Origin: Thuidium tamariscinum
Taxonomy: Eukaryota > Streptophyta > Bryopsida > Hypnales > Thuidiaceae
Length of the DNA: 64,000 nucleotides
Reading direction: 5' to 3'
Assembly: GCA_947034885.2 (NCBI GenBank)
Contig: OX344754.2
Span: 15,642,501 to 15,706,500 of the forward strand
Part shown: piece by piece, positions 7,184 to 28,858 of the stretch
How the letters are laid out: each line of letters begins with the position of its first letter
Position numbering within the stretch: position 1 is the first letter of the stretch
The notes under the pieces: generated by a model
The model's database searches: none
The model's input: the letters and a program-made list of their open reading frames with translations, nothing else
What the model was told of the DNA's origin: nothing
Program-made: the position numbers and the translations under genes

Positions 7184-7210
7184 AACACCGAATTAGACAT
7201 TTTTGCACTT
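7184..7210 (+). repeat. Left terminal inverted repeat (27 bp)
   Basis: Starts aacaccgaattagacattt and ends tttgcactt; 27/27 identical to the inverse of 28832-28858. The final tgcactt also begins an imperfect hairpin (7204-7220, tgcac...gtgca). Confidence 0.95.
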
Positions 7211-7250
7211 AGAAGGTGCAAAATTGCACTTCATTCGTATGCTATGTGCA
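7204..7250. promoter_or_regulatory. Left subterminal TGCAC/GTGCA motif cluster
   Basis: The 5-mer TGCAC or its inverse GTGCA occurs at 7204, 7216, 7225 and 7246. The right end has the same motif at 28807, 28821 and 28834. Clusters like this near transposon ends are commonly transposase binding sites; that role is inferred. Confidence 0.45.
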
Positions 7251-7493
7251 ATATACAATATCAAACATGGAGGGGGGGCAACTTTTTGGAAAATGCCATT
7301 CAAACTTTGTAAGTGAAATTCACACAATGGATCTTGTCATATTCTTCCCAATGTTTCAATTACTTAAAGAAATCCTTCAACACTTTTCACTCCATGCTAC
7401 TCATTAGGCATTTTCTTTTGCCGTTTTGCTTCAAAGATATAGAGATGCCTACAACTAGACGGTCTAAAATACATTTCATCAATTTATACCTCT

Positions 7494-10400
7494 CTAATAC
7501 ATATTCAAATCACTTCGCAGACGTTCGTCGTCTAGATCCTCCATCTGCATTGCCATGTACTCAAGAAGATGAGGTTTTGCGTCCATTGGAATAATTACTA
7601 CTTCCTCCGTTTGCACACCATGTACTGTAATGCTCGAACGTATGGAGTGTCCACTTCTCCCATGATGGGGGACATCCGTCCATGAATATATCGCTGCTTC
7701 TTTCTCAACCCATGAACATCTCTCTCCAGTTGGTTCCCATGTTGATTCCATGCAATTCACATATCTGACTGTATTGCTTCCTGCTTCTTCTACTCCAGGT
7801 CTCATGCTAGGCCAATACCAAAGGACTTTGATCTTCAAGGCCCACCTCCCTTGACCAAACTCCAACACCTTTCCTAAATAGAAAGGTACTCTTGTCCTTA
7901 CTTCACTTGCTTCTACTGTAAGAGCTACAAAGTGCCCTAAAGCAATGTCATTCTCTGGATTGAACGGAGGAAAAGGATCTTCATTTGCACCTCGTACTAA
8001 TTCAACAACTGCTTCATTTGCTCTATTTCTATTCCTCTTCCCTGTCATTCTTCGGGATATTTCTGGTGGAGGTCTGTCTCTACGGGGTCCGAAATATCCT
8101 CTCCTTTGGGGATTAGGCATTGTTGCCATTATCGCATCAACAGTTGGAAGTCCTGCTACAATTTCATCTGCTCCAATTGATGTAGTCGAATTTGTTCCTC
8201 CCTCTTCGACATTAGGAACAACATTGCCATCTTCATTTTCATGTAAGACTTTAGATGGCCAAAATGGTAAATCACGGATGCCTTCTCGATTTTGTTGTGG
8301 AAAATCTTGTAAGTAATCCTTGAACACCTTTGTTTTCTCTACAACCTCTGAGTTCCTAATTGGATCAAAGCCTCTCAACAATAACTTCTCTTTGTAAGCT
8401 ATGAATTCATCCAAAGCTTTCAACTCCCTTTGATCCGCTGCAAACACCTCAGCAAGATCTGGTTTCTCTGCTGTACTGGGTAGTGAGTGCAAACACAAAT
8501 GTCCTCTTTCCGGGCCCCACTCGTCTGAACTGAAATGTTTGTGTTGTACACGGACCAATCCATTTTCCACATAGAACCTCATATGGTGTGGAAATGTTAT
8601 ACCAGTCACTTGCTCCCCTCCTCGTAGCAAATGTGGTGTGATGAATGCCTTCCAATCGTGAACGTGTTCTAGCTGTCGAGCACTCACAAAAGACTCGGTG
8701 TATGAAGTGCCTTTCTCCACCAACTGTAGCATCTCTTCCAATGTATCTATATCTCTCCTCTTCAATACATTTGAAATCACACTAAACCTCTGATCGATGT
8801 CCTCGTGCATGTGTCCCACAATTAAAAAACAAAGATGCACTTCTTTGAAAAACCCAAGACCTACTAGTGCAGCGCACATTCCAAACATATAGATGTTCTT
8901 GTTCTCCCTTGTAGTGTTATCTGCTTGAATCCTCAACGTTGGTGGCAATAATCCTCGCCTTCGCTTGACGTCGCATATTATGTTCATCACTGACGTTATG
9001 ACTTGATTGCTATCATGCTTGTGGTGAGCATCGATCCAGACATCAGCATACAAGCCAATTCCATGAACTAGTACACCACAAAGATGAGTCTTCACAAATC
9101 GAGATTCAATGTTCTTCACAGTTTGACGCATCTTCGGTATCATAGTTGTATTTTGATCCATCCCATCCACAATCAAGCACATAAAGATATCTGGTGTGAT
9201 CATTGCTGATCTCTTGAATAGCCAATAATCTCGCCTTTCCTCCATTTGAATTCGTATGTGGATGATGTATAACTCTTTTATTTTCTCCTTCGCTACTGCA
9301 TTTGTTGTTGACTCCATTCCGCACTTATACTCCCAACAGTGATAGCACTTTGAGAATCTAGAAAAAGGTGGAATTTGCACGTGGGGAAATTCTTTTCGCC
9401 AAAGTCGACGAAAAGAACTTATTGACAATTCTGACCCATCCACACGTTTCTTCACTTCTTCATTCACATACCGAAACACGTCCAGCTTCGTTGTATTCAT
9501 AGGCAACAAAACCAAAGGTAACACTGCATTGTCCATCTTCCTCCGTATTGATCGATGCGGTTGTTGGCATCCAGCTTCATTCACAAACACATGAAGGCTT
9601 TCCCGAGCTGCCGACAATTTTGTACTTTCTCTCCCCTGATTGGTATTCCCATGAACGGCTGCAACTCTACCATATATTGCATGCGATGTTTTCAGTTGCT
9701 TAAAACGCCTCTGAGAATAACCCAATGCCTCAGCATAACATGCATTGCAAACAACTTTGCCATCCATCTTTGTCACATACTTGTCTCTTCTTCGTCCCTC
9801 TGTACGAGTGAAGAAAGCATTCAGCATTTGCATTATCCATGTAGCCCTTGCTTCATATTTTTGACCCCAAGCCATGTACCGTTGATCCAAAATATGTTTC
9901 GCATCAACATCGCGTAAACAATTTTGTTTACATCCCCCTCTCTCCTTTGCGACTTTGACACTTTCAAGTGTAACCTTCGTAGTCACTGACTCCCCTTGCT
10001 CCCTTGGACTTCTTATCCGAGCCCTTCGATTTGTCATTGAATAACTCCTCCGTGGTACTCCTACTGGCATTCCATCCACTCTTGTTATGTTCAGAACACT
10101 TCCCTCTGATACTGGCGTCAAAGGTGAACTTGGTGCCGTACTCCTATCACTCTGACTTGGCGGTGTTACATTTGAATTGCTTGAATTCTCTTGCGCATCA
10201 TGGAAATCAAATTGAGGTGTAGGGATACTGGGGAAAGAGAAATTCTGCCCTTCTCTCAAAGGAGGAGAATGCCCTAACCTCACTTCCGAAGGACGTGCCC
10301 AACGAATAGAGGATCGGTGCCATCGTATGACCTTCTCCAAACATTCTCCTAGAACCTTTCCCACCACTTCACCAACCCATTTTGCTTCATCTACAACATG

Positions 10401-10703
10401 AGTAACTGAAACTGCAATTTCGAAAGGTCGTAACTTCACTTGGTGGAGTTCAGCACCAGTTGTATAGCTTATATCTACTACACCAACCCCGACAATGTTC
10501 CCATTCTCCCCTAGAAGTTCCACCATCCCATTTCTAACTTCAGGGACTACAGTGGTAGGTGCACTGCTCTCCTCTTGGAATAGTCTCCCTCGTACCACTC
10601 GTGTTAATCTTTCTCCTACTGTTCTTCTCTCTGTTGCAACCACGGTAGCACCTACAGCATTCAAAGCCACCGGACTTCCGAATCCTCCTTCTGCCATTCT
10701 CAT
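7494..10703 (-). CDS. Transposase-like protein with DUF7869-type RNase-H-like core, 1069 aa
   Basis: One uninterrupted reading frame, starting at ATG 10703 (ATGAGAATGGCAGAA; the second ATG two codons on is equally plausible). Regions: residues about 55-130 resemble the DUF8039-type N-terminal domain of plant transposon proteins; 150-240 is Ser/Pro-rich and basic; about 325 has a Cys pair (VCNACYAEALG); about 460 has CYHCWEYKC; the core follows. Core motifs are VDGMDQ (512-517), QADNTTRENKN (D595), and GHMHEDIDQRFS (E634, D635, D637), consistent with an acidic triad of an RNase-H fold. Downstream is an acidic linker, then a C-terminal segment (about 915-1010) with a GKVLEFGQGRWALKIKVLWY pattern resembling a chromo/BAH-like reader. 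Inferred role: mobilising the surrounding element. No intron is needed, and no stop or shift interrupts it. The family name is from memory and needs a profile search. Confidence 0.8.
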   Translation of the reverse strand: MRMAEGGFGSPVALNAVGATVVATERRTVGERLTRVVRGRLFQEESSAPTTVVPEVRNGMVELLGENGNIVGVGVVDISYTTGAELHQVKLRPFEIAVSVTHVVDEAKWVGEVVGKVLGECLEKVIRWHRSSIRWARPSEVRLGHSPPLREGQNFSFPSIPTPQFDFHDAQENSSNSNVTPPSQSDRSTAPSSPLTPVSEGSVLNITRVDGMPVGVPRRSYSMTNRRARIRSPREQGESVTTKVTLESVKVAKERGGCKQNCLRDVDAKHILDQRYMAWGQKYEARATWIMQMLNAFFTRTEGRRRDKYVTKMDGKVVCNACYAEALGYSQRRFKQLKTSHAIYGRVAAVHGNTNQGRESTKLSAARESLHVFVNEAGCQQPHRSIRRKMDNAVLPLVLLPMNTTKLDVFRYVNEEVKKRVDGSELSISSFRRLWRKEFPHVQIPPFSRFSKCYHCWEYKCGMESTTNAVAKEKIKELYIIHIRIQMEERRDYWLFKRSAMITPDIFMCLIVDGMDQNTTMIPKMRQTVKNIESRFVKTHLCGVLVHGIGLYADVWIDAHHKHDSNQVITSVMNIICDVKRRRGLLPPTLRIQADNTTRENKNIYMFGMCAALVGLGFFKEVHLCFLIVGHMHEDIDQRFSVISNVLKRRDIDTLEEMLQLVEKGTSYTESFVSARQLEHVHDWKAFITPHLLRGGEQVTGITFPHHMRFYVENGLVRVQHKHFSSDEWGPERGHLCLHSLPSTAEKPDLAEVFAADQRELKALDEFIAYKEKLLLRGFDPIRNSEVVEKTKVFKDYLQDFPQQNREGIRDLPFWPSKVLHENEDGNVVPNVEEGGTNSTTSIGADEIVAGLPTVDAIMATMPNPQRRGYFGPRRDRPPPEISRRMTGKRNRNRANEAVVELVRGANEDPFPPFNPENDIALGHFVALTVEASEVRTRVPFYLGKVLEFGQGRWALKIKVLWYWPSMRPGVEEAGSNTVRYVNCMESTWEPTGERCSWVEKEAAIYSWTDVPHHGRSGHSIRSSITVHGVQTEEVVIIPMDAKPHLLEYMAMQMEDLDDERLRSDLNMY

Positions 10704-11807
10704 CTCCCAATCACGAATACATGCTCATGTCTTCATTATAGATTCTCCACTTCTGCTATCTTATAGATCCTACTTCATATCCCCTTCCCACAACAAATAC
10801 ACATAATTCAGAAAAAATTAACTACAGTTCTTGAAGAAAACTTATGGAAATTTGTTAAATTTTTATAAGTTCACATCCACGACAACAACAAAATCTTAAT
10901 ATCTTATTCACCTCTTCATTTGTAATTTCTTGTCTACATTCAAAGACACTTGATTGCATCCATTTCAATTTCAAATAAAGAAGCTACAAATGCGTCATCT
11001 TCCCTAAAAAAATTTATACTCTTATTCAACTAAAACTACCACGTTTCTATTCCGAAAACAATTTATACACTTTCCTCAACAAACTAAAATAATACGTGCC
11101 TCATTTTCAATACTAAAAAAAAACTTCTACAATCACACCGTCATGCTTCATGTACTTGAATATCATCTTACATATAATAGTAACTTTTATATGTTTCTTA
11201 TTTTATTCCTACTTCAACTGAAAAATGCATTGAACAATACAAATAGAATTGCTCTTGGTATCTTTTGTTTGTTTTTTCAACTCACTATTCAATTACAAAC
11301 AATAAACAACTGAAGATATTAACTACTTGTTGCTCCCGCATCTAGTTCATTAGGGTGACAATGCATTATAATCTTGTCATGCATGTCCTGTTCAATATTG
11401 CAACATGACAAAGAACACAATGACATCCCCACTACTACTTATACCTTGGTGTTTTATACCTGAATTTACACATACAAACATAATGTGCCAACAAAGTTAG
11501 ACATTATGACATTCAAAAACTTCACCTCATTCTTTAAAACTAATTTCGCATCTAATTTTCTAATTTAAAACTAAATAAACTCACACCTGCATCTGTGTTT
11601 AAAGTAAACATAAATCCCATACTTTTTTCTCTTAACTTTCAAGACTTCCTCTCCAAAATAGCTTTATTTAACCCATTAATAGATGCTTTCAATCTTCTTC
11701 AGGAGTTCTATTTAGTGCTATAGAGTGAACAATGAACATAGGGAGGTAGTCTCCATGCACATGTATACATATGAGTACAATGTAACTAACAATGACCACT
11801 GAAAAAA
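10704..11807. other. Upstream region of the transposase gene, no gene seen
   Basis: AT-rich sequence upstream of the minus-strand gene, expected to hold its promoter. I see no clear TATA assignment, exon or repeat boundary. Confidence 0.4.
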
Positions 11808-11999
11808 CACTAGTAGAAAACGCAGGAATTTTGATAGAATTCTGTTGATTTGGTCGCGTTGTTTCGGTCACTATTTTGTTGATTTCAACAGAAATCTGTT
11901 AATTCTAACAGATTTCTGTTGAAATCAACAAAATAGTGACCGAAACAACGCGACCAAATCAACAGAATTCTGTCAAAATTCCTGCGTTTTCTACTAGTG
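11808..11999. mobile_element. CACTA-type foldback MITE (192 bp) nested in the giant transposon
   Basis: The element starts cactagtagaaaacgcagg and ends with its exact inverse; the arms are about 95 bp and differ at essentially one position near base 28. It is flanked by aaa on both sides (11805-11807, 12000-12002), a 3-bp duplication as expected for CACTA elements. It would fold into one long hairpin if transcribed. Confidence 0.85.
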
Positions 12000-14900
12000 A
12001 AAGGATCAGCTTAAAAACCACATCCCATTTTAGGATTCGTGCAATTCGAATTTGCAACTACTTAGCCAATGCATTAATGCTCCAAATCTCTTGAAATTCT
12101 GTAATGTCTGAAGTGCTTGAAAGCACTGCAATTGCATATTTCTTTTACATTTTTGTAATCCCATGTTCTTTAAAAAACACTAGAACAAGAGTGCAAAGAA
12201 CAACTAATAAGTGGTCAACCGGTCACTAGAGGGTTCACTCGAACACAAAGGTTTCAAAGCTCAAAACAGGAAGGAAATTAATGTCTACACTACTTTCACT
12301 TTGAAATAAATGAAAAAATAATTGTGAAGGAATTGAACTTGAGAACTACTTTACATCATAAATGAATGGGAAGAAACACAAGGTAAGAACTAGACATTCT
12401 TTACAACCTTAAATCTAAAGTGATTGGAAATTAAAAAAAAGCACTACAAAGACCATGTCATTTCAAATTACGTCCAGTCTAGAAAACATTAAAAGGGAAA
12501 AACCCAGAAATGAAATGAAATTGATAAATACCTTCAATTCTAAATCCATGTGAAGGATAGAAATTGAGAAGGTCATTACATTGAAAACTACCTCAACCCC
12601 AAACAAAGAAGTTAAGGGAATAACATGGGAAAGTGAAAAAGTTATGAACCACCTGAAGCCAATGGAATGCGAGGACAACCAAAAAAATTGGTTATGCAAT
12701 GAAATTGAAAACGACCTCAACCCGACATCCATTTGAAGAAATACAAATGGTAGAATGTAATAAGGTCAAAATGAATGGGTGGAAAAATTCAAAGAGCAAT
12801 GAACTATGTTGTAAATTATCTTATGTCTGATTGAACGGCAAGGACAAAACAATTTCAAATTCAAATAATTTTATAAGAAAACAAGAAGAATTCAATTGGA
12901 ACTTCAAATAAACAATAAGATATAAGACATTGTGAACTACCCAAAGCCATCATTAATAGAAAAAAAGAGAAACCATTCACTATAGCAATGTCTACTGAAA
13001 TCTTAAATCCTATAAACAACATGCATAAGAGGCATGAACATATCTCTATAGACTATAGGGAAGCACAACCACGAATTGGATATTAGGGATTCAAGATGTT
13101 CACTATATGTACTAGGATGAAACATATTTCCCATATATTGAGATAAAAAGGAACAAACTTCTTTTGCTTGGTACATAACAGTGTTTTCACTATATCACAT
13201 ATTAATAAAAAAATTATATATTTGAATACAATGCTGGATATTGATTTCAATAAGTCCTTACAATAATTCTTTTATTTATTTTATAAGACTGTTTTCAATC
13301 ATGAATACATGAAAATCTTATTGTCACACAATGTAATATTACAGAAAAGGAGTAGCAATTTGCAATCACTTTTGTAATATCACTTCTTACAAAGAGTGGT
13401 ACTATAAAAATGATGTTGTTGCAATGAAGGTGATATTAAAGAGGATTCACAAAAAGATATGATAGAGGTAGCAAATCCATTGCTTTTCTTGGCTTAATGC
13501 TCCTTTGCGCTTCTATGATCTAGAGCTTTTGTGAATTTTTGAGCTTCCATGATATAAATTTCCTAAATTCTAATGATGATTGCATAGCATAGCAAGCACC
13601 AACCACTAGTTCACCCCTATTAGCCCAAGGATTGCCACTCGTTGGATTTTTTTACACGATGGACTTTGAATTCAACATTTTCTGTGTTTTAGAATTCAGT
13701 TGAAAGTCAAGGAATTTTTTTTTAATGCTTCATTTCCATTTAAAAAAAATATTAAGTAGAGGTACGTCCAAGATTGAAAGAAAAATTAGATCATTAATAG
13801 CTCAAAGATGGAATTCAAACACAATAATTTCAATGGTGAGATTGTTCCAGCAAGCACATTTAACTTTGTCAAGCAAGTTTTCTTGAAAAACCTTGAAAAT
13901 TACATTAAAAAAAAATCCTATAAGTTATTGTTTCAAAAATTGCCCAAAAACAAGAGTGTTTATAACTTCCACAAAACTAATCCAAATGGAATGATCCAAA
14001 GCTTTACACATAGACAGAAATATAAAATATAACACTACATAATAGAAATATAAAAAAATTCAATTCCTTCTGGATTATTTCTCTGCTTGCCGAGTTAAAA
14101 TACGCTCTTTTTGAGGTATACCTTTTCCCCCCACACACCAATTACAGTTACATTTAGTTTTGCACAGAGCTAATCATTTCTCCTATTTCATTTGAAAGTT
14201 TTCCAAAAATTTATTGACAAACTATAGTCTATGGAAGCTGCCTTCACTCGAAATTATCCCCCAGGGGAACAAAGGTTGTCTATGGGTTAAATTTTTGAAA
14301 GGAACACCACCTACTTCTCTATTCCAATTCAAAACAGAAAGAGTATTTAACAACAAACCTATGATTCACACTCTTTGATAAACAAAAACGTGCATTTCTA
14401 AATGTTATATTGGTGTTGTTCATGTCAATATTTATATATGCTTTACATACAAAATCATTCGATTGTACGTATCACATGTACAATTATATGTATCCATTTA
14501 TAATTTTGTACATCTATCCTACTTCTATTGAAATTTTGAAGATCTATGCAAAATAACTTGAATTTCTCTTTCCATTTCCTAAGCCAAATTCTTTTATTAT
14601 GGTCCTTTTAGGCACTCAAAGGGAAAAATGAATTGTGATTGAAGAAATCCATTACAACTTAACCTTACCATAATACCACAATTTGTAAAAACAATAAAAT
14701 GCTACCCTACTATAGAAAAGGGCTATAAAACTTAGTGGGCATTATCAATTGTTTTCACTATTTTCTGACATAGCAAGGAAATTTTAAAAATACAATATCT
14801 CAATTGGATGACGTTTGTTCAAATATAAAGAAGAATCAAATATAATTTAGAATCTATTTTTTAATTTTTTTTATGGAGATTTTAAACAATTAGGTTTCAA

Positions 14901-15331
14901 TAACAAAGCACCTAGAAAACCAGAACAAGACCGCAACATCTACGATTACATTATTAAAGTAGAATGACTTTCACCCAAGCTTTAATGCATCAAATCATCA
15001 ACCTCGATTTCTAACTACACATTGTCTATGAATTAGATGTCAGAACATTGCACAGTTGGTGGTACATGTTTCTAATGGCATTATTTAATGTAATTCATAC
15101 TTAATTAAATAAGAACGTTTCCTACACCTCAACGACTGTACACAAAAAATATGGATACTACTAATACATTATAAGATTTCATCAGAACCTTAAAGTTTCA
15201 TAACATATTATTCAAAGGTCTAACATATTCGTCGCCTACATTGAAAAGATGCAAGATGAATTGAACATGAGTTCTTCGAATATGTTTCTTTAAAATGTCA
15301 AAAGTGCAATGTACAATGTTATCTTCATGGC
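12000..15331. other. AT-rich cargo of the giant transposon, no gene recognised
   Basis: Long AT-rich stretch with only short open frames (for example 12463-12732 minus, 13808-14032 plus) that show no domain. Nothing supports a gene. Confidence 0.45.
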
Positions 15332-15655
15332 TGGGTTTTTTTTCTGGCGATTTGGTGCAAAATTGCACCAACTATTTTGGCCTAGTAGCAAGCCCACGGG
15401 AAAAAAACAGTAAAATTTTGGATGAAATTGCCAATAGGATTCAATTTTTTTGAAATAGTGGATGAAATCGCCAATGGGATTCAATTTTTTTGAAATAGTG
15501 GATGAAATTGCCAAATAATGGATGAAAATAGAATGTTAGATATGTATTATGTGCTAATATGATATTCTCTATCCAATATGTGGATGAATGTTGAGATTTG
15601 GAGCTCCACATTAAAATGACATATCGCCACCTTGACACTTCACAAGAAATGAAAA
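15332..15655. mobile_element. Family D MITE-like repeat inside the transposon
   Basis: Begins tgggttttttttctggcg and ends near gaaatgaaaaaataaac. It carries the same interior as 4049-4335, with a short internal tandem duplication (gattcaatttttttgaaatagtgg twice, period 51) at 15426-15530. Confidence 0.5.
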
Positions 15656-16763
15656 AATAAACTCTGCTTCATGGTGCTATGAAATTCAGCATCCATCAAC
15701 CTATTCTTTGAAGATTGGTACATCTATAACTACTACATGTGTATAAGTACATTGTAATTTTAAATTTACCTTTTTATTCCACATTTCTTTTCAATCTAAT
15801 TTTTTCTTTTAAAGGAGCTTCCTTTTCCTAGCCTACATTGTTAGCACTACATTATTTTCTGTTCCCATAAAAGAGAAACTTGTGAACGTTAGGCTCTCAC
15901 TTAGGTGAATCATGATTACAATAATTCTATAGATGAATTATTTTAATAGGTCCTTAGAAGAAAATTAACACTCAATTATTTTTAAGAGAGAAAGGGAATT
16001 TAACCAAGTTTGCCTTACCAACCTTCCTCAATAGGTTAAAAGTCTGCTTAGGTCCTAAATACCCAAAACCCTTCAACCAATTCTCTATGTCACTTTGTTC
16101 TACATAGAATAGGGTTATAGATAAGATTTGGATTACAGATCCAAAACCCATCATAGTTGATACCATGAACTTTGTCCAAAATAACTTAGCCAATAAATCT
16201 AGTGAAATGCACTAAAAAACGGTTCATTTTGAAAACTTGTCTTAAAACCTATCATGTTCACGTTCTCCCAAAATTTAGAGAATTCCATATTCTTCTTTAT
16301 ACCCTACCGTGGTCATACCTCATGTTCACCATATCATATTTTTTGAAATTGTATCATTGAGACACAATATACTACGCTCACAATACCTTATTCTCTATAT
16401 CTGGACATTGGTAAACATTAACATCGTGGTAAGGTAAAAAGCTCTCAAATGGAGTGGGTTCTAAAATGGTGCTCCACCTTATATATACAATCTTTGTACA
16501 TATTTCTTTCTCATAGCCTTAAGCAGTGTACTGATAGCATACATTTTAACTATGGCTCCGTTTTAGAGACGTATGCTCTTTCAACTTCAAAATTTGAAAA
16601 CTAATTCCACAAAGCTCAAGATAATATGAAATGACTTGGATTAAATGTCAAATATACTTCTCTTTCAAGTAAAATTTAGTGAATAATTTTTCTAGAAATT
16701 TTAACTACCTGAAATTTGGTCTCAGCCCATTACACGTCCTACATGACACCGTCATGTGTGTAC
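15656..16763. other. AT-rich cargo, no gene recognised
   Basis: A short open frame at 15972-16193 (minus) has no recognisable domain. The block at 16575-16735 recurs, diverged, at 17095-17242 (shared phrase atatgaaatgacttgg), an internal duplication about 0.5 kb apart. Confidence 0.4.
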
Positions 16764-17361
16764 TAGCCCTTTTTTTCCGGCACAATGGAGTCAAATTGCA
16801 CCATTTCAAAATAAATGTCTTTTTTTCACCAAATAAAACTAATCTTCCTTCATTAGAAATTTTCCATTCTTTTAAAATTATGGATGAAATCGTCAAATTC
16901 AGATAAAAAGGTTCACGAATATGATGGAAAAGTGTTTTCAATCCTAAGGGAGGAGGCTCAAAAACCACTCAGGCTCCAAAACCGCTCGCCTTCTTAAATG
17001 TATATTTCAGGTACATGATGCTTTTTTATCTTTACAGTAATGTACAACCAGTGAACATTTGAGGAGGTGGGCGGTTTTGGAGCCCTATGCCATATTGACT
17101 TCAAAAATTCATAACTAATTCTACAAAGCTCCAAAAAATATGAAATGACTTGGGTCCGATGCCTATTCAAGCTGTCTTTCAAGAAAAATTCACTGAAAAA
17201 TATTTCAAGATGTTTGTCCTGCCCAAAATTCTGTTCCAGCCCTTAGATGGTTGGTTTATGGACCTCCTCCCTTAAAGGTGGATTACTGTAGACATAGAAC
17301 GCTTCACCAAATTTGAAGTGATCGCCATCTGGGCACTTCTCCCAAAATAAAAAAAGGGCTG
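16764..17361. mobile_element. Family D repeat interrupted by a nested foldback
   Basis: The outer ends are inverse (agcccttttttt at left, aaaaaaagggct at right), with the family phrase atggatgaaatcg near 16880 and tgggcacttctccc at the right. Between about 16938 and 17272 is an insertion whose ends are inverse (ctaagggaggaggctc and gacctcctccctta), with a second inverse pair inside (ccaaaaccgctcgcc / gtgggcggttttgg). Confidence 0.4.
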
Positions 17362-17987
17362 GTGGGTACCCGTCCTTTACCGGTGCCCACCCACTTGCAC
17401 AGCAGGTCACCTGTGTATCAGGGAAACTACGTAGCATCGCACCCGTATACCCGGGAGTGACGTGATCCTGACGTCACTCTTCTCGACGTCGGAGCAGACA
17501 GGAAGAACTTGCTTCCAGAACCCTAATTGGAGCTTGTGAAGATCAGATTTCTCTCACGCTCTGCTTATTCGTGCCCTTTGCTCGCAGACAGGAGCTCATC
17601 TTTGGTAGAAACGAAGGTCACTTCTGCGATGGTGAATCGGGAAAGATTGAGTTAGGCGCTTTCAGATGCTAAAGTATTCCACTGTTAGGTAAGGAACTCC
17701 TAGCTATTGTTTTCATCGGAATGTTCATGTACCTGCTCCTGGACTTTCGAGGCCGCACTGAAGTCGATGTCTTGTCTTGTGCAGCGAGGTATCTCCATCT
17801 TACAGAGCGGGTGGAGCTTCGTGAGGGATCGCAGTGGGAATTCACGAGGGTTCAGACTTTCAAGTAACTCGGCGGTCGGGTAAGCTATCGAAACCTTGGA
17901 TGCAGAAGTTTCGTAATGTTTTTAGGGTTCACCTTGTCCAGCGCAAGGAACGCAGGTCGCAGAACATCAAAATTTGAGTCCCCCTTC

Positions 17988-18023: not shown

Positions 18024-18077
18024 TCACTCTCTTGTCGGCCTTGGGGCTTCTCCACGAAGGAACAAGGAGGAACAAGT

Positions 18078-18113: not shown

Positions 18114-18843
18114 TCACATATCTTTTTTTCTTGTCGCTCAAATCTGTTGCCTTGGCTAGGCACGTGGCGGCTCAGGTGGACCTCTGGAACTCGTGCGAGG
18201 AAGAAGAAAAGAGGCGGACACAAACAGCCCAAGAAGTCGGAAAAGGTAGAAGGTGAAGAAGGTTAGAGGTAAGGACTTTCCTTACCTGCTGTTGACTTTC
18301 CAATTTTGTATTTCCTTATTCCGCGCCTACTTGAATTTTGTCGCCATTCTGCAATCTCATTGCCTCCGTTCGCTCCTACCCCACCTGCAAACGGTAGACT
18401 CTCGCTCATGCCCCACCTGCAGTTGGACAGCAGATTTCTTGAATTCGTAGGGTACGCGGAGAGGGAAGAAATTTAGGTCAAGTGCGGAGGTAGAAGACGA
18501 AGGCATTGGAGATTTCCTGTGAATTCAGCTTGCGGAAGGAAATTCTAACCGGTTAGTTAGCAACTCTTGTCACCGTTTCTAAAAAAATTTGAGTTCTCGT
18601 ACCTGCATCGCCTCTTCCCTCTTCTAGTAGTTCAAGCTAGCGGACTTCCTGCGGCCTGTTAATCCATTAACCAAAATTGAACGCCGCAGTTGCTGGTTCT
18701 CTAGGTGAGAGATTCAGGTATCAGAGCCCGCCCTGCCGGCTTGAAGAAAGAAAAGGTAGCCGGGAAGGAGTCCGCTCAGTTCACGTGTCTAGGAGTGTGA
18801 AGTTGCTACATATCTCACTGAATTTTTGAGAACCCAATTCTGG

Positions 18844-19046
18844 CAGGACTGTCTTAGATTAGAATTCGAATCTTCTTTTCAGTTTAAAACCTGCTCCACA
18901 GCTCTCTGCAGGTGATTGACAGAATGGGTGATTAGGAAAACGCTAGACAGGACTGTCCTAGACTAGAATTCGAATCTTCCTTTCAGTTTGCGGTGCTCCA
19001 CAGCTCTCTGCAGGTGATTGACAGAATGGGCGATTAGGAAAACGCT
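18844..19046 (+). repeat. Two-copy tandem repeat, period about 104 bp
   Basis: Both copies contain aggactgtc, gaattcgaatctt, ctccacagctctctgcagg and gattaggaaaacgct. They differ by a few substitutions and a short gap (18844-18947 and 18948-19046). Confidence 0.8.
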
Positions 19047-19485
19047 GATACCGTAATATATCTGTGAAGAAGAATGTGTATGTATTCTTCTTGTTTGTCA
19101 GACAACAAGAGGTTATTAGCAAAGATTACAGGGTTCTTGGTCCTCCGTAGGGTATGCTTAGTTTTGAGTACTCACACAATCGTTATCAGGAAATGATCTT
19201 TGTTTTGACCTTTCAATCAGCAGCTAGTTGTTAATTGAGATGGAGGCAAGCATTTTGACTAAATTAAAGATTTGCACTATAGAGGAGCACTTACATGAGG
19301 TTCAGCAAGTCGTCTTTCTGTGAAATGAATGCCGAGACTCCGAGACTGCTTTCTTCCGAATCCTCGACACTACTGCATTTCGAACCTGTGGTACTGTAGT
19401 ACATTGAGAGGGTGCCCTTAACCAGCCTGTGTGAGGAGCGCGTTAAAGAGGACCATCGGAACCGTCGGGGGAAAACCCTGAAATT

Positions 19486-19772
19486 TTTGCATTTTTGCAT
19501 TTTTGCATTTTTTCAAATTCAGAATTCAGAATCAAAATCAGAAACCCCAAATTAGCTAGGGGAACCTTAAATGTACCAAATAATCCAACACAAACCAAAA
19601 TCCCAAGCCCTCATCAACCAGGGGAACCCTAAATGTATCAAATAACTGAACACAAACCAGAACCCCAAGCCCTCATCAACCCCTAGTAAAATGAGATTTG
19701 CCCCACTGGACCCCCTTTCGATGGTACTCTTCAATGTTCTGCAGACCATTGAGATTTGCCCCGCTGGACCCC
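19486..19772 (+). repeat. Cluster of short tandem repeats
   Basis: It holds tttttgca repeated three times (19486-19512), a 62-bp unit repeated twice (19558-19619, 19620-19681; phrase caagccctcatcaacc), and a gagatttgcccc.ctggacccc unit twice 58 bp apart (19692, 19750). No coding meaning is evident. Confidence 0.7.
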
Positions 19773-19889
19773 TAAAAGATTCATTATATAGAGTTTGCAC
19801 TGCGAGGTTTCTAAAGGACGTTTCTAGAAGCATTTTCCTTTGTCCACAACATTCAATGCATTGCTTCATTTTGGATTCGATCATATAGG

Positions 19890-22800
19890 TTTGTGTCTAT
19901 GTTACATAGCAATTGAAGGGAAAATCACATTTGCAAGGTGTCATTATATGATAATAGCAATATTGAATCAAAGTGGGGTAATAGGTACAAACAGAGTAAG
20001 GAATGTTCATTACCTTTGACCTCGCCAGTGATCATGGTATTAATGGAAATGCCTTTTTTTTTGTGAAAGTGGTCTTCTCCAATGATCTCCAATTCAAGGT
20101 TTAGGGTCCACTGGTCCTTTGTGAAGAAAGTGTTTTTAATGTACGTTGAAGAAAAGAAAAAATTAAGAATAACATGAGTGAAACGTTTGTAGTTGTTTGG
20201 TCTCTGTAGTTTTTGTACTTGTTCTCAAATCAATAGAAAAAGGCATTGATTTCATGGTAACATAGTGAGTGTGTGTTTTTATTTAAGAGAATGATGAAGT
20301 TGTTTGGAAGGCTCCGTAAATATGTACATGACTATAAGGTGCAAAGTTCCTAAATTGAAATTTAGGAATGTAAAGGAATTTGAAATGGACTTAAATGAAT
20401 TTTTTATTAATGGACAATAGGAATGAACTTGTCATGAAAGGTGGCCTGATTAATTTAAAATTAAGTGTATCTTTCAAAAGGTACTTTAGAAGCTCAAATG
20501 TTAAAGCACACCTTAATGGAGAAATTGTTCAAATGTATTCAAATTGTACTTAAATGAAGGCTAGAAGAAAGAACAATGTCCAAGCAATACATATAAAAGG
20601 AGACGCTTCATGTAAAAGTTCTTTCAAATCTATAGTCTCCGACGTTAGTAAGAGTGAAGCTATGTATACAAAATTATTACTTTGCTTGCCCTCTATTTTG
20701 AATTCTTTTAATTAATTTTACGTAATAAAGAAAAGGAGAACACAGTGATTTGAATATGTAAAAACCATGCTCAAAATGAAGTCTATGAAGTTGACAGTGG
20801 AGTTCATAGTTGTTGTATTCCTTGAAAGGGAATGTATGTGTTGATTTTTTTTTAAAGAATTTTGAGATAAATAATAAAGGACTTTACATAGAAGTTCACT
20901 AGTTAGGTGTCAATAGATTTTCTTTTTAAGTGGTTATGAATTCCTGAAGTTGTTATCGTATAGTATCTTTGAATATGCGAGAAATGAATTAAAAAAAATC
21001 AATTTCGTTGGTATTGCAATTGATAGAAGCACTTAATGATTTCCTAATTATTCTTGTTTTGAGGGACTAAACACATGTTAGAAAGTAGTCCTTGTCTAAA
21101 TTGAAGGGAAAGTACACCAAAACAAAGTTTTAGTGTGCTTAATCTTAATTAGTGAATGCAATAAAAGTTTTACAGTTTCATTGATTTATATTATTTATTT
21201 GAGGTATTGGAAACTTCTTTAAGTGATGTCTAGTATGGAGTTTGGGGTTTTTATTTACTTATAATGAAGTGAAAGGTAGTTGATATTCTGAAGGTAGTGT
21301 GGAAAGAGAAGTTCAAGAACAATTTAGTGAAATTGATTTTTTTAAGGACATACTAGAAAAGGATTGTCTAACATACATAGACTTGAGAATTCTTAGAAAG
21401 TCTTCAGGTAAATTATTTGTAGATTTATAATTTATGATTTTGTGAATTTATTTTATTTTAAGTCAATGAAAGGTTCTAGTATGAAATTATCGATTTTAAA
21501 AACATTCTTTACAAGGGAAGTAATACCAAAGATGTTGCTTTGAATGTAGGAAGTGATTAGTCTTTTGAGAAGAGGACGGAATTCAGCATATATTGGAGAA
21601 ATCTAGGTGTACCATTGTTCCAACTCCATAGGAACTCCCAAGGTGAAGTGGCAGTGCGGCTTATTCAAAAGGTAATTGAGTACAAGTTAATATATATATA
21701 TTTTTTTGGTATTGCCAAATTTTGAATTCAGGAGTTGCATGTGTAATTTGGTTTTCAAAATGTTGTCTACAATGTTTTCACGTGTCACGAATGAATTTGT
21801 TCCTTAAAAACAAAGACCGAAATTGCAATTGTAAAAAGAAAATAGTCATTAGGGAAAAATTGAACCCTTAAAGAGGCTTTGAATTTTCTTACTAATTTTA
21901 ATATAAAGTAAATGAGTATGAGAGTGCCCACATCATCATTACTACTTCCATGTAGGATTTCATGTATACACTTGACTTGTAGATATTCGCGGCAGGCGTG
22001 TGCTCCATCTTTCATAATTGAGTCATCATGAGATTTGGGAGATTTTGAAGATGGATTAGATAATGATGACAATTTTTGAGTTTACCATGCAATTCTTGGT
22101 ATAAATAGTGAGATAAGAAGGCTCTTTCTTGCCAAATAGTTATGAAATTATAGAGATGGATTGGGAAATGATGATAAATTTTTGAATTCAATATGATTTT
22201 CTTGGCCCAATTAGGAAGTTGAAAAGGCTCTTCCCATCCAATCTCTTGCATTACAAAGCGGCCTCTTTGGAAGTTCAATTCTCCCCTAATGGAAGTATTT
22301 TGTTAGTCTACCGTTTCATACCAGGGAGATGTGATCAACATTAAGGAATGGACTTAAAATATTTTGAGTAGTACTAATATGTCCCGTACTGGGTACTAGA
22401 AAGTATCTTAATTATTACACGAGTAGGTAAATTGTTAGTTGTTTTGTGTCCTACCATGTTCCATTGGTATTTGATGAAGTGTTTTAGAATAGGGGTCTGT
22501 ATCTTCAATGTACTAATACAAGAGGGTAGTAAATTATGTGCTTTGTAACAAATCTTATATGATTTCATAGAAAATAATTTTTTGGGAGAAGTGAAGTATA
22601 GCAAAGTTCATTAAAATCCAATTGATTATTATGAGTGTAGGATGTAGTTGAGTACTACTTATTTCAGTGGTTTTGTTTTTCCTTGGTGAATGGTATGGAG
22701 TGCCTATAGAACTAAGTGTTTCAGTGAGGTAGTCACCGAAGATGTTGACATAGAATGTTAGGATAGTTTAGGTTAAAGGCTACAAGTGTTGACATTCATT

Positions 22801-23806
22801 TTCATTTTTTTCTAAAGTGTGTTCAAAACTTAAATGATGATAAAATATCAATAATCCATGGGAGTACTTATACTTTTGAGTAATTATATATATAATTTAA
22901 AAAGTGAACACATGCGCATTGTTTAGAAAATATCGAGGTATTGAAATGGTATGTATGAACGTAATAGTGCCTCCTTAGTTGGTTGTAGCTTCACACGTAG
23001 TACAAGTTGTAGGAATTAATCTTAGCATCCCATTAGTGTCTTCAGAATTAATTAATTGAAGGATGAATTAGAGAATTTAATCATGATGAGTGCAAATTAT
23101 TAGCATGAGTACTTGTAGTTCATAGTGTTTTCTTGTAAAGTATGGGGATGACCCCGATGTATGTTAAAATGTTGTAGAATGAAATTTGAAGAAGTAGCCA
23201 TGAATGGGAATGGAACTCATGTTTGAGAATGTAAATTGAAGTGAACCATACCATTCATGAGGCAACCATCTATGAAAACAGAGTTTGCCGTAATTGAAGT
23301 TGAATTATTACATTGTTGTTATGTAAGTACATACACTAATTAAAATGTATACATATTTTGTATTCAAATTAGATTTTAGAATTCAAGCTCTAGAATCTAT
23401 TTTTGGGTTTGAAGTTCAACACTAAAATGTTGGAATGGAGGGTTTTTATGAAGTCATGAGATTTAGAGTCTTAGGATTCTTCTTTGACTTTAGTTTTTAC
23501 CTCCTTTTACTTTGGTTGAAGTGAACTTGAACTTATATTGTTATTCTTTTACTTTGACCAATAGATGTTTGGAGGTCTATTTAAGCATATCCCACTTAAC
23601 TTTATATATATATATATATTGGGTAGGCATGTTAGAAATTGAGAGGAAGAAATCATTTTACTTATAATGAACTCTTCAACATTTTAGCATTTGAAATCCG
23701 TTTGATTTGAAGACAACATTGCACGAAGGTACTTCCATTTGTATTTTCAAGAGTGTCTAATCAAAATACTTATTGTTGAATACTTCTTTAGGTACAATAC
23801 ATCATC
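19890..23806. other. AT-rich cargo, no gene recognised
   Basis: Nearly 4 kb with only short open frames and a (TA)n tract at 23603-23619. It lies directly upstream of the plus-strand accessory gene and probably holds its promoter; no element can be assigned. Confidence 0.4.
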
Positions 23807-24844
23807 ATGGCACCGAAGGTTCACTCCAAGTGGGTGGACCACGGATGGTGGATAGAATCAAACGGCACAGAGAAGTCGAATTTGTGGATTACAGATTTTC
23901 CTATTGAAGAGGGGAGATATTGGGCTCCTCTGGGTACTTTGTATGGAATCATTGAAGGCCTTGCAAGAACAGCTGAGGGGGGATTGACTATATCGATAAC
24001 CAATACTGAAACAGTGCTTGAAAAGTACAAGTTGATAAAGAAGCTTATGATGATGCCCATTCCACCAGAGCTATTTTTAACCGTTTCACCTATACACGGT
24101 TTGAAGACGTTGGTTAAGTTCTGAAAGACGATGCCTGATGATTTGAAGCTTCGAAGAGAAGAATGTGTTCATAAATTCAAGGAGTCAACCCCGGAGCAGC
24201 TTTTTCGAGCCCGCTCTATTTATATGGAGATTTGAAGGTATGAAGACCTTGAGAAAAGCAACCCTGTTGCTGTTGCAGAGTGTATTCTTCCAACGGAACC
24301 TGAAGATACAGATGAATTGTATAGGCTGTATGCAGCTCCTGTGAAGGAGAATTGGATCCCAGTGCCAGAACGGAGTAAGAAGCGTGCATCTACTGAAGAA
24401 AAGAGTGCCGATCATTTGGAAGAAGGAGGTGCTTCACAAAGACAGAGAATCCATCGTCAACGTTTAGTATCTGCAACAGAGAATGTGATGCAGGGGCCGT
24501 TGAGGGAAAGTGACCTCCATGAAGTAGCGGTTGCTGAAGGTAGTGCACCTATTATTCCACCATCAGTGGAGACAGGTGTACAAGAGGTACCTGTGCAACC
24601 AGAGGAAAGGACACATGATGAAGAAAATGTCCCACCTATTCAAAGTCAAAGTGAAGGTGGAGCGCAGACAACTGAAACAGAAGCAAGGACAAGCTCAGGA
24701 GCTGCAACTGTACGCTCCGGTAGTCGTGTGTACAGATCGGAAGTTAGAATGGCCAATGTGAACGTTCGAGGACGTAGTGGTGGGAGAGGGCGAGGTACAG
24801 GAAGAGGACAAGTAGCAAGAAGAGGACGTGGTGCTGGAGGTGGA

Positions 24845-24907
24845 GGACGTGGTGGTGGTGGAGCAGGATGTGGTGGTGGTGGAGCAGGATGTGGTGGTGG
24901 TGGAGCA
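24845..24907 (+). repeat. Three 21-bp repeats coding Gly-rich motifs
   Basis: Unit gga[c/t]gtggtggtggtggagca, three copies in frame, giving Gly-rich repeats in the accessory gene; diverged units flank it (24820-24990). The Arg codon cgt in unit 1 reads tgt (Cys) in units 2 and 3, a C-to-T type change. Confidence 0.8.
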
Positions 24908-25206
24908 GGACGTGGTGTTGGAAGTAAAAGACGTGGTGTTGGAGGTGGAGGACCTAGTGCTAGTGGAGGTCGTGGAGGAGGTGGAGAACTTGGTCAATCT
25001 ACAATTCCACAAGAGTCTGAAGTAGAACACGTTGTTGAAGAGCAACAAATGTCAGAAGCTATGAGAACATTGAATGAGGTAGAGCAAAGTGTACGCACTC
25101 GGAGTACAAGACAAAGAGAACTTGCAAGAGCAATAGTGGAAGGTCCTAGTGAACAACGCAATGATGTTGAAGAGGAAATCTATGATGAGGATTCAGTAGG
25201 GAAGAA

Positions 25207-26307
25207 GTGGAAGAGGGATGGAGGAACGTACCTGCACGAAGTGTTGCAAAAGCACCAGTGGTTTTTCCTACGGAGAATGAGTTCAGAGCTGGATACATCT
25301 GGGGTCAGGAAACTATTTTCAATGCCAATATAGATAGTATCCGTAGTGTTCAAAATGTGGAGACAAACCATAGGACGCTGATGGAATGGCGAGTGACAGA
25401 GATGTATGAGCGTTTGAAGGGATCAGAGGCCGATGGAATCAGTGCAATAACACTTCGTCCAATTGCATATCTTTATGACAGTACCAATGATGAGGGGGAG
25501 ACAGAGGTGGTACAAGTTCCTTTTAGTCAGGAAGGTGCAGCACGGGAATTTGAAGTTGCATACTTGACCCATTGTAAAGTTGATCCAGCTATGCCAAGGG
25601 ATATGGTGAAGCACCATTGGTTGGAGAATCACATTTTGTGGGAGGCAGTGGATGGTCAACACATTGTCGGTGCTTGTAAACGAACCCAACAAGAACACAG
25701 AGATGGAAAAATGTCAGAAGAGGAGTTCCGTTTGCGCTTTCAAAAACGGAGAGCAAAGTTCTTGGTATATAACAGTGCTCAATTCTATATTGAAGCATCA
25801 GTACGAATTAACGCAAAAGAGTTCCAGCGGCCTTTCTACACTTCCTTCTATGAAAACCTAATGAAGCTGCGTGATATATGGAAAGCTTGTGGTTGTCCTA
25901 GTAGTGTTGCTCAAGTTGATGATGCACAGAGAACGAAAGCGATGACGATGGCAACAAGTGCATTGCACTACAGCAAAGGATTGCCGCAACATATGTCGTT
26001 GGAGGAGTTGTCAAAGAGGATGGTTGATTATACAAGACATGCCTGGAATGATGATGAAGAATCTTATAAGGCAGTATTGCAAGTTTGCAAAGATTATGAG
26101 GAAGGAAAGTTATTCTATAGTAAGAAAGCAGAGGACTCTTGGAAGAGAATGGCAAGGGAAAAGAATGCGGTTGAGACTATGGACGAAAATCCTAGAAGGA
26201 AGAGGATGGAAAAAACATGGTGGAGGCCTTTAAGTAGAGTCTCAAACGAGACTTATGCACATGTAGTGAAACAAATGACAGCAAAGGAAGTGGTTGATGG
26301 AAAGTGA
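25207..26307 (+). CDS. Middle fragment of the accessory gene (about 366 codons)
   Basis: An open frame after the shift, with no true ATG at its start (it opens on GTG inside the former frame), ending at TGA 26305. It is rich in charged helices (peptides such as EEFRLRFQKRRAKFLVYNSA and FYTSFYENLMKLRDIWKACG). It reads straight on after the stop into the next fragment in the same frame, so the TGA is best seen as a mutation. I do not recognise a domain. Confidence 0.5.
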   Translation: MEEGWRNVPARSVAKAPVVFPTENEFRAGYIWGQETIFNANIDSIRSVQNVETNHRTLMEWRVTEMYERLKGSEADGISAITLRPIAYLYDSTNDEGETEVVQVPFSQEGAAREFEVAYLTHCKVDPAMPRDMVKHHWLENHILWEAVDGQHIVGACKRTQQEHRDGKMSEEEFRLRFQKRRAKFLVYNSAQFYIEASVRINAKEFQRPFYTSFYENLMKLRDIWKACGCPSSVAQVDDAQRTKAMTMATSALHYSKGLPQHMSLEELSKRMVDYTRHAWNDDEESYKAVLQVCKDYEEGKLFYSKKAEDSWKRMAREKNAVETMDENPRRKRMEKTWWRPLSRVSNETYAHVVKQMTAKEVVDGK

Positions 26308-26352
26308 CCATCACAGCGATACTATTTCAATCATGCTACATCTGCAAATCTT

Positions 26353-28320
26353 ATGAAAGGTACTGTAGCATATGTAGTGGATCATGTGCAACGGAAGGAT
26401 GTTGTGAAGAATCAAGTGCGATTCTTAATGGTACAAGCAGGTGATGAAAATCCTTTATCTCTGGATGATTTCTTTGGTATAAATGTAAGCAAATATGCAA
26501 ATGATGGAGGAAGGCAATTTGTTGTGATGGGGAAGACATTGGATGTTGAATCCAAGAACTTGTGGTGTTCACCTTCTGTAAAGACAATTCAAGCATTGAA
26601 GGGTATTGAGCATGTAATTCCAGCATTTGTAAAGCAACATTTCAACGATATTAGAGGAGGTCGAGGAGGCTATACAGGCTATAGTCGGGAGGTGGAGGAT
26701 GTATCAAATGCACGATGGGATTGGCAAGTAGCTCTCTCTACAATGCAAGGTGAAGAGAGTGAAAGGGTAGTGCATGTGCGATGTAGGGGGGGATTTTTTG
26801 AAGAAGAATACGTGGAATTAGGAAAACCATGTTTATGGGTTTTCGATTGTAGACGAGGAGGTGCAGAAGGGCCAGCCAGAGAATGGACAAATGAGGATTA
26901 CAGTAAGGTAATGCAAAAACTTCAAAATTGGATGTCTTCAATTTTGAGGTGGACTGCCATTTTCCTTTTCCCGGCAGGTATACATTTTGATGAAGCAATG
27001 CAATCGAAGATGGGGTTATTGGAGGCATCTCATTGTTTGCAGGGTTTGTGGATATTTGAAAGAAGAACAGTTCCTTCTTATGTAAATGATCTATACCATG
27101 GAGGACAGAAGCAACGTGGGGTGCAAATAGTGGGAGACATTGCCATCATTATGCATTATCCACCGGAAAGTGGGCCTATGGGGAATGTACCCCGTAGTAC
27201 GAATGATTTGGATGTCATATTTAAAGACAGCTGGAGTACGGAAGTGGTGCCTCGAGTGGAAGACAAATTTAAAAGAACACCTTTGGAGTTGAAGAGAATG
27301 GTGCAAATGTATCTGCCACGGGATTGGGGATTAGTGACTTTGGGCATTACAATGGCCGTTCCAGGGATTTTGGAAACTACTTTTGTAGGCAAGGAAATCA
27401 TCATTATGGAAGGAGCAACAAGTCGTATGCAATTTGTGTACAATACACTGCAGTTGCTGTATGGTGAGAAAATGGTGATGGTTAATGCTGTGAGTACAGC
27501 CGCTGAACACAGAGTTGCAGATGCAGTGAGTACAGGAGATGAATTGCGAGTTAGTGGTCGTCATCCAGGAGATTCAAATGTCGAGCCTCTTGGATTGGAA
27601 AGGCTACCTCGATTAGGGAGTACCTCTTCAAGTGAAGAAGTAACACTTCAGAGGAAGAAACGGAAGAGAAAGGAGACTGGAATTGATTTCGGAGCTTCAT
27701 CATCAAGTGGAGATGATAGAGATTCTGAACGAACTCACTCTGACGATTTACGAAGTGGTGGCATCGATATAGGCTCACAAGATACAGATGATGGACATAC
27801 GGCACATGGAGATCAGGAGAGCTTAATGGAAGTGGAAGAAGATCGTGATTATGTTCCAGCGGAAACTAATGTCTCTGTGAAGAACAAAGAAGCTGAGGTT
27901 GTAGGAGTTGAGGCTGGAGAAATTGAAGGTACAACAACACAAAAGGAACCAATATCAGCATTAGAAGCGTTCAGCACTCGAAATATGGAGAGCTTGACTC
28001 CAGGTGAAGGTGGATATTATTATGACAAGGATCAAGTGAAATATATTCGAACAACAGGAAATGATGGGAATTATGTTTATGAACGTGCTTTTTCAGTTAT
28101 GGAAGAATCTACAGAGTATCCTTCTTTTGTCGAGAGAGTTGCATCACCTATTCTAGATGCAATGGTGGGTAGGGCTTTGGAGTATGCTTCTCCACCTCTA
28201 CTAACTCCAATAGGTGAACAAGCAGTACATGAAGACACTGAGGCAATTGGTGGAGAGGGAGTAGAGGACTTGACGAAATCATCTGCACGAGTATTGGAGA
28301 CTCCTGAAGAAGAAGTGTAG
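26353..28320 (+). CDS. C-terminal fragment of accessory gene, methyltransferase-like (655 codons)
   Basis: The frame in fact continues from 26308; 26353 is the first ATG. Residues 160-200 (CLWVFDCRRGG...EWTNEDYSKVM) have the shape of the DPPY segment of amino-methyltransferases, with DCRR in place of DPPY. There follow the strand ILRWTAIFLFPAGIHF and, at 310-354, RTPLELKRMVQMYLP then LGITMAVPG and GKEIIIMEG, the layout of the Pro-rich helix, SAM loop and 'GR.fIGIE' strand. Both catalytic loops lack the usual residues. After 380 it is acidic and disordered, with a basic RKKRKRK patch (about 433-440). Structural inference only; likely inactive or a binding domain if correct. Confidence 0.4.
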   Translation: MKGTVAYVVDHVQRKDVVKNQVRFLMVQAGDENPLSLDDFFGINVSKYANDGGRQFVVMGKTLDVESKNLWCSPSVKTIQALKGIEHVIPAFVKQHFNDIRGGRGGYTGYSREVEDVSNARWDWQVALSTMQGEESERVVHVRCRGGFFEEEYVELGKPCLWVFDCRRGGAEGPAREWTNEDYSKVMQKLQNWMSSILRWTAIFLFPAGIHFDEAMQSKMGLLEASHCLQGLWIFERRTVPSYVNDLYHGGQKQRGVQIVGDIAIIMHYPPESGPMGNVPRSTNDLDVIFKDSWSTEVVPRVEDKFKRTPLELKRMVQMYLPRDWGLVTLGITMAVPGILETTFVGKEIIIMEGATSRMQFVYNTLQLLYGEKMVMVNAVSTAAEHRVADAVSTGDELRVSGRHPGDSNVEPLGLERLPRLGSTSSSEEVTLQRKKRKRKETGIDFGASSSSGDDRDSERTHSDDLRSGGIDIGSQDTDDGHTAHGDQESLMEVEEDRDYVPAETNVSVKNKEAEVVGVEAGEIEGTTTQKEPISALEAFSTRNMESLTPGEGGYYYDKDQVKYIRTTGNDGNYVYERAFSVMEESTEYPSFVERVASPILDAMVGRALEYASPPLLTPIGEQAVHEDTEAIGGEGVEDLTKSSARVLETPEEEV

Positions 28321-28831
28321 TAGAAGCAATGAAGTTAAAAGTATATGTCATTGTGGTGTAGGATGTGGGAAAGAGTAGAATTTGCGTGTTTGTTTTGGAA
28401 GTGGTTGCAGGTGTTGGGTTTTTCATTCATTATAGCGAAAAATATAGAGTAGAAATGAGAAGACAATGGAATGTACTTTGTATGTCATTCTCTTTCTTTA
28501 AATAAATGTTTTCGTAATTATGGTTATTTTATAGTGTAGGAAATATGAGGGCAATGAAATGGTATGTTTTTGATGAATTTGATGCTCTCAGTGCAATTAG
28601 AATGTAAATTTAAGAAACGAATGTGTAAGGGACATGAGAAAATTAATTAAGTTTGAGCATCTTTTAATGAAAAGTATTGAAAACAATCTATAAAATAGAA
28701 ATTTGCATATAACATTGAAGTTGTAAACAAAAAGATTGAAAATTAGCTCTCATAAAAAATGAAGGGGTACCCAAGTTTTTAGGTAACACATGTTCAATGA
28801 ATAGTAGTGCAAACGGTGATTGCACTTGGCC
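28321..28831. other. Right end region of the transposon, no gene
   Basis: AT-rich sequence between the accessory gene stop and the right terminus. No exon or repeat is recognised apart from the subterminal motifs. Confidence 0.45.
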
Positions 28832-28838
28832 AAGTGCA
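28821..28838. repeat. Perfect 18-bp palindrome at the right end
   Basis: tgcacttggccaagtgca is its own reverse complement and overlaps the inner part of the right TIR. The left end has a looser version (7204-7220). Confidence 0.9.
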
Positions 28839-28858
28839 AAAATGTCTAATTCGGTGTT
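28832..28858 (-). repeat. Right terminal inverted repeat (27 bp)
   Basis: Exact inverse of 7184-7210, ending gtctaattcggtgtt. Confidence 0.95.

Follow-up and report, generated by a model that had tools for sequence, protein, structure and literature searches.

A giant two-gene transposon with a DUF7869 gene, defined ends and 4-bp target site duplications in the moss Thuidium tamariscinum

The window analysed here is a stretch of 64,000 nucleotides from the moss Thuidium tamariscinum (assembly GCA_947034885.2, contig OX344754.2, positions 15,642,501 to 15,706,500). At 7184..28858 it holds a transposon of 21,675 bp, delimited by 27-bp terminal inverted repeats (TIRs), a 4-bp target site duplication (TSD), an empty paralogue of the target, and sister copies elsewhere in the genome. 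The element carries two large divergent genes, each terminating near one of its ends. Gene 1 (7494..10724, minus strand) is an open frame of the DUF7869 family and a probable transposase gene, judged by its profile match, by purifying selection and by conservation among 12 copies. Gene 2 (about 23807..28320, plus strand), recognised from its frames, interruptions and genomic relatives, is a decayed copy of a gene of about 1,500 aa that belongs to no known family.

The left TIR (7184..7210, plus strand, AACACCGAATTAGACATTTTTGCACTT) and the right TIR (28832..28858, minus strand, the same sequence inverted) agree at 27/27 bases. At ≤3 mismatches AACACCGAATTAGACATTTTTGCACTT matched nothing else in the window and nothing in 100 shuffles. 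The flanks carry AAAG at 7180..7183 and again at 28859..28862, a duplication of exactly 4 bp, with the fifth base differing between the two sides. A second copy of the host sequence is present in the window (55501-64000 against 1884-36052, main pieces 90-95% identical). It matches the left flank at 94.4% (4761-7110 against 59318-61680) and the right flank at 94.9% (28859-29924 against 61957-63015), and at 61929..61982 (plus strand) it is continuous where the other copy holds the element and has AAAG only once, at about 61957-61960. This empty site lies in a diverged paralogue (about 95%) and not in an allele, and the paralogue bears a hairpin of its own close by, about 210 bp long with CACTA ends, at 61680-61890. 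An earlier note on this DNA, made from the sequence alone, had claimed the identical ends, the exact duplication and the uninserted host copy; all three were borne out, and the element is confirmed as real and placed to the exact base.

To see the element in its genome we searched the window's own assembly (363 Mb, 19 contigs). The left 301 bp of the element matched at 36 places and the right 301 bp at 40. The ends fall into three subfamilies, A (the window element), B (AACACCCAATTAGACATTCTTGCACTT) and C (AACACGGAATTCGTTATTTTTGCACTT). At ≤3 mismatches the A/B/C end pattern had 149 genomic matches (75 forward and 74 reverse), 100 of them listed with positions, and the reversed pattern had none on either strand (0 + 0). 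An exact 4-bp duplication flanks 28 of 38 end pairs tested, and none of the 38 shares 5 bp or more; when the right flanks were re-dealt in 2000 trials, exact duplications numbered 1.13 on average and 7 at most. The search for further insertions that the earlier note had proposed is therefore positive, with related ends and 4-bp duplications, although the aaag-like target that it expected is not, as the duplicated sequences differ between copies without evident motif.

The closest relative is a sister copy at C3:36586971-36611529 (24,559 bp, TSD CTTA), which has both ends and is 93-97% identical along the shared length; a further related copy lies at C1:14607160-14628288 (21,129 bp, TSD AATT). 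Spans between paired ends run from about 8 kb, where one gene or both are missing, to 29 kb, with one of 40 kb that includes a nested element. Copies with both genes mostly measure 16-29 kb; a DNA transposon of ≥20 kb thus need not be a composite but can be a true multicopy unit. We found nothing in favour of the idea that 7184-28858 is an assembly join or a chance pairing of unrelated ends, and we give it next to no credence: it is refuted by the sister copy, which stands on another contig in the same order with its own TSD, and the paralogous empty site in the window also speaks against it. More generally, because further insertions with 4-bp TSDs and further two-gene loci were found, the outcomes that would have undone the earlier note (no other copies, unrelated ends, an assembly join) are excluded.

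Gene 1 is uninterrupted over 1,076 codons from stop to stop (1,069 aa from the first ATG); when the element was shuffled 50 times, no frame exceeded 211 codons. It matches PF25273 (DUF7869) with E = 4.8e-50 and 170.3 bits, above the curated cut-off of 26 bits. No other Pfam family was reported at E up to 10, in a search where HMMER filters discard most matches above E 0.1. Searched by sequence, the PDB gave no match at E up to 1, and scans of viral and prokaryote contigs found no relatives. A degenerate-motif match in a phage contig lay on the strand opposite a recombinase-like frame and was dropped as chance.

In the genome, gene 1 gave 48 match rows that reduce to 34 loci, and a search with the final 670 codons of gene 2 gave 69, which reduce to 44 loci. 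These counts are lower bounds, with 43/749 candidates scored for gene 1 and 66/136 for gene 2. The most diverged gene 1 relative, at C1:37954211-37957072, has 40-51% identity. No convincing TIR was seen in the 3 kb beyond its stop, and it is possibly a member of another lineage or a tamed copy.

Selection on gene 1 was estimated from 12 near-complete, frame-consistent copies as the ratio of nonsynonymous to synonymous substitution rates (dN/dS). Between the window copy and five subfamily-B copies the ratio is 0.15-0.17, and against two C copies it is 0.11 and 0.13, the other three C comparisons being saturated; for pairs inside one of these subfamilies, B or C, it is 0.13-0.29. Several of the gene 1 dS values exceed 1, a range where the method is rough. 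Against its young sister the window copy gives 0.94 at a dS of 0.026. The pattern, a usual one for transposases, reads as selection during a transposing phase followed by neutral drift once a copy is inserted.

Gene 2 is in a different state. In the window it is broken by three in-frame TGA codons, one of them near 24110-24125, and by one change of frame, so of the two large genes in the earlier note the DUF7869 gene stands as open and the second is interrupted in this copy. An uninterrupted relative exists as a 1,510-codon frame in L082, a C copy. Among four gene 2 sequences dN/dS is 0.19-0.35 in five of six comparisons, one being saturated; both genes have thus been under purifying selection. 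Pieces of gene 2 gave nothing above any cut-off in Pfam, NCBIfam or PHROGs. Their best library match, below its cut-off, was to phrog_10432 (E = 3.7e-5), a family of unknown function, over a glycine/arginine-rich stretch. The uninterrupted relative touched CDC45 over an acidic stretch (E = 9.1e-4, below the cut-off for that family), had 0 matches in NCBIfam and had no convincing match in Pfam or the PDB; the best E for gene 2 in the PDB by sequence was 0.33. A ParB/DGQHR-like domain, suggested by a motif (VDGQH...ACK), was supported by no profile and stays a mere conjecture.

The two genes travel together. At 21 of the 34 transposase loci a gene 2 is found no more than 32 kb away, in every case on the opposite strand and on the upstream side, so the earlier note's check for the same two genes also came out in its favour. 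Gene 2 is probably a conserved partner acting as a DNA-binding, assembly or regulatory factor, by analogy with other two-gene elements.

PF25273 itself was searched in the genome in a first look at 853 candidates, giving 150 matches here and 0 in 14 control genomes. Judged by eye, 27 of the 150 coincide with gene 1 loci. The other 123, mostly covering profile positions from about 35-55 to 192, look like another group. One of its elements, at C3:21104357-21123323 (18,967 bp), has a 28-bp TIR (AAGGCCTTATTCGTTAAAATGAGACAAA) and the duplication ATCA; its boundaries were set by hand against known gene sequence. Its empty site is known because it sits in the transposase gene of a B copy: at C3:21085291-21125153 a B-subfamily element (TSD CTTA) holds the complete second-lineage element (TSD ATCA) within that gene.

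At ≤3 mismatches AAGGCCTTATTCGTTAAAATGAGACAAA has 564 genomic matches (289 + 275), of which 100 are listed with positions, and its reversed pattern has 0 + 0. Nine further pairs, picked for perfect listed ends 17-23 kb apart (a tenth such pair was left out), all have an exact 4-bp duplication, which makes 10/10 with the C3 element. At least 33 DUF7869 matches lie 1,376-1,460 bp inside a AAGGCCTTATTCGTTAAAATGAGACAAA-type end, by matching by eye among the ends listed. The earlier note was unsure whether this family had been tied to defined ends before; it is tied to them here in two lineages, each with its own ends and each with 4-bp TSDs. Very probably, then, DUF7869 is the transposase and belongs to a DDD/E cut-and-paste group; the strongest argument for a transposase is its occurrence, together with the 4-bp duplication, in two lineages whose ends are unrelated.

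The interior of the element bears on the idea that genes 1 and 2 are captured passengers and that the true transposase is elsewhere. The sequence between the genes is mostly without assigned features, and over about 14 kb of the middle the window copy and a B copy on C10 have hardly anything in common, as might be expected if the genes were cargo. However, the genes are the best-shared parts of the window copy and two B copies, the DUF7869 gene lies near one end in two lineages whose ends are unrelated, and no other transposase domain was found by Pfam in the 45 of 52 interior frames scanned. We therefore consider passengers very improbable. The sole weak Pfam match among those frames, to Spo0A_C (E = 0.0012), was judged to be chance.

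Our preferred explanation, to which we give a probability of about 90%, is that 7184-28858 is a class II cut-and-paste TIR transposon in which gene 1 encodes a DDD/E transposase and gene 2 a conserved partner. TIRs are present here at 27/27 bp and throughout the family, and the TSD keeps a constant length of 4 bp in 28/38 and 10/10 pairs of the two lineages. In this reading the gene 1 protein, a putative RNase H-like DDD/E nuclease, would bind the TIRs together with the TTGCAC repeats next to them, cut the element out and place it elsewhere with a 4-bp stagger. The stagger is taken from the 4-bp duplications, which filling of the gaps at the insertion site would produce. The gene 2 product would assist it in DNA binding, assembly or regulation, by analogy with the two-gene elements of plants.

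Motif density marks two subterminal clusters of TTGCAC(T)/GTGCAA, at 7203..7251 on the left and 28806..28839 on the right. TGCAC occurs at 8.3 per kb in each terminal 600 bp and at 2.45 per kb element-wide. These repeats are possible transposase-binding sites.

Candidate catalytic residues are numbered along the stop-to-stop frame of gene 1. D520, D523, E641, D642 and D644 are invariant in all 12 copies, and D602 is kept in 11 of the 12. The candidate acids are D520, D602, and one of E641, D642 and D644; their spacings, of 81 and 38-41 residues, are presumably compatible with a DDD/E nuclease. The order along the sequence (a putative strand ending DG, a later one ending DN, then a helix after GHTHEDID) looks like that of an RNase H fold.

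Besides the high dS values mentioned above, several observations weigh against this reading. Ten of the 38 end pairs are without an exact duplication, among them some whose ends are visibly eroded and some that narrowly fail, such as CTTG/CTTC, and so is one more pair outside the 38, C1:23.37. No gene 2 was detected within 32 kb of 13 of the 34 transposase loci, and gene 2 may therefore be dispensable, decayed or displaced. Copy C9:21.5 has N in place of D602; its frame is otherwise open to within two codons of the alignment end. In the window copy M replaces the T found in the other 11 (GHMHEDID versus HTHEDID), so this copy may be impaired. D520 lies upstream of the stretch modelled by Pfam (residues 541-733), which makes the first catalytic acid a guess. 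AlphaFold without an alignment gave a mean pLDDT (predicted local distance difference test) of 31.8 for the whole gene 1 frame and 35.9 for a 260-aa core, values too low for either model to support an RNase H-like fold.

The transposon so described may be further classified. At slightly better than even odds, it belongs to the Sola superfamily (as Sola1 or Sola2) and DUF7869 is the Pfam name for the Sola-type DDD domain, which would refine the explanation above. In the available parts of the papers cited here and below, Sola is listed among the Repbase superfamilies (PMC4455052) and is described as having a DDD transposase, 4-bp TSDs, very variable ends and lengths mostly of 2-9 kb with some >15 kb, with members in the moss Physcomitrella (PMC10741241); the TSDs of Sola2 are AT-rich (PMC3627910). 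Both lineages here likewise have 4-bp TSDs and very different ends in a moss host, and they are large (two-gene copies of 16-29 kb in the one, elements of 17-23 kb in the other). A DDD transposase (D520, D602, and D642 or D644) may be read from gene 1, with D602 in 11/12 copies and the third acid ambiguous. On the other side, most Sola elements are only 2-9 kb long (PMC10741241), and those parts of the Sola descriptions (PMC10741241, PMC3627910) mention no second gene of about 1,500 aa, whereas the two-gene copies here have a conserved, divergent one. By description (4-bp TSDs, a DDD transposase, occurrence in a moss), Sola is the best-fitting candidate among published groups.

The size of the element, which the earlier note called unusual for a plant cut-and-paste transposon, is borne out at 21,675 bp, but Sola elements with 4-bp TSDs and, in some cases, more than 15 kb were already on record (PMC10741241, in part), so neither its size nor its duplication length is new by itself. 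What is new is a giant two-gene cut-and-paste TIR element whose transposase family has no published link to ends in the literature searched.

It is doubtful, though not far-fetched, that DUF7869 elements instead make up a superfamily of their own, not yet described, of DDD/E transposons in eukaryotes that leave 4-bp TSDs and carry two genes. Each lineage has its own ends in many copies, and within the HMMER filter limits given above the transposase matches PF25273 alone in Pfam. In the open literature, which leaves aside subscription journals and Repbase, we found no paper naming DUF7869, PF25273, PTHR34415 or PTHR33153 (the last two being what we take to be the PANTHER numbers). We know of no Sola-named Pfam model, however, so the missing Pfam matches are also compatible with Sola, which moreover already covers the TSD length, the moss host and the large size (PMC10741241, in part).

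We would hold only tentatively the fullest version of that view, in which DUF7869 marks an undescribed giant-transposon superfamily with a wholly new family of 1,500-aa partners here and a second lineage of perhaps 280 copies of about 19 kb (a number extrapolated from the 564 end matches), a good many of which sit on a single small chromosome. Contig C11, which has 17.5 Mb of the 363 Mb (4.8% of the genome), carries 44 of the 100 listed second-lineage ends (of 564), greatly exceeding that share; our guess is a sex or heterochromatic chromosome.

Among better-known plant transposons, CACTA/EnSpm and Mutator elements have a two-gene arrangement, and they resemble the present element in combining a transposase gene and a second gene with subterminal repeats and TIRs. 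Gene 1 has no Pfam match to the transposases of either. The ends here are AACAC where CACTA/EnSpm has CAC..GTG, and the TSD is of 4 bp where that of EnSpm is 3 bp (PMC12730594, in part); Mutator TSDs are of 7-12 bp (PMC10741241, in part), whereas 0/38 pairs here share ≥5 bp. Zisupton/KDZ, hAT, IS3EU and Harbinger are likewise cut-and-paste TIR elements, but their TSDs differ from 4 bp: 8 bp in Zisupton/KDZ, usually 8 and also 5, 6 or 7 in hAT, 6 in IS3EU, and 0, 2 or 3 in Harbinger (PMC12730594, in part).

PF25273, to which gene 1 has its strong match, is a Pfam name without a function, here linked to ends and TSDs in two lineages. A Pfam domain of unknown function thereby becomes a testable transposase whose ends and staggered cut are defined and of which open copies exist. 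Beside it stands a conserved second gene, assignable to no known family, and what it does in transposition can be asked directly. Should DUF7869 prove to be Sola-type, the Pfam name would be linked with that transposon superfamily; otherwise the catalogues lack a superfamily.

Two stretches of the window element are missing from the sister copy and for that reason are probably later nested insertions. One is a hairpin miniature inverted-repeat transposable element of 192 bp (11808..11999) with CACTA ends and a 3-bp AAA duplication, for which direct alignment of the junction succeeded; the other is a stretch of about 320 bp (16954..17273), for which only the right flank was seen. Hairpin elements with CACTAGTAG..CTAGTG-like ends occur at 53169-53386, 61680-61890 and 11808-11999, the last being the one whose site is empty in the sister copy. 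Between 17200 and 19900 the element is GC-richer (41-49% by kb) and contains hairpins and a 102-bp tandem repeat, possibly an organelle-derived or nested insert.

Rfam at gathering scores gave 0 matches in the whole window. A short dispersed repeat (about 180-330 bp) occurs at 4045-4331, 15328-15661, 35283-35462, 57637-57925 and 63237-63416, in both the host duplication and the transposon. At 50745-52153 there is an array of a unit of about 177 bp in a 1.4-kb inverted structure whose 363-nt arms are 93% complementary, perhaps a fold-back element. A cytochrome P450-like gene lies in several frames at 39023-41240, with a PF00067 match for 39023-39835.

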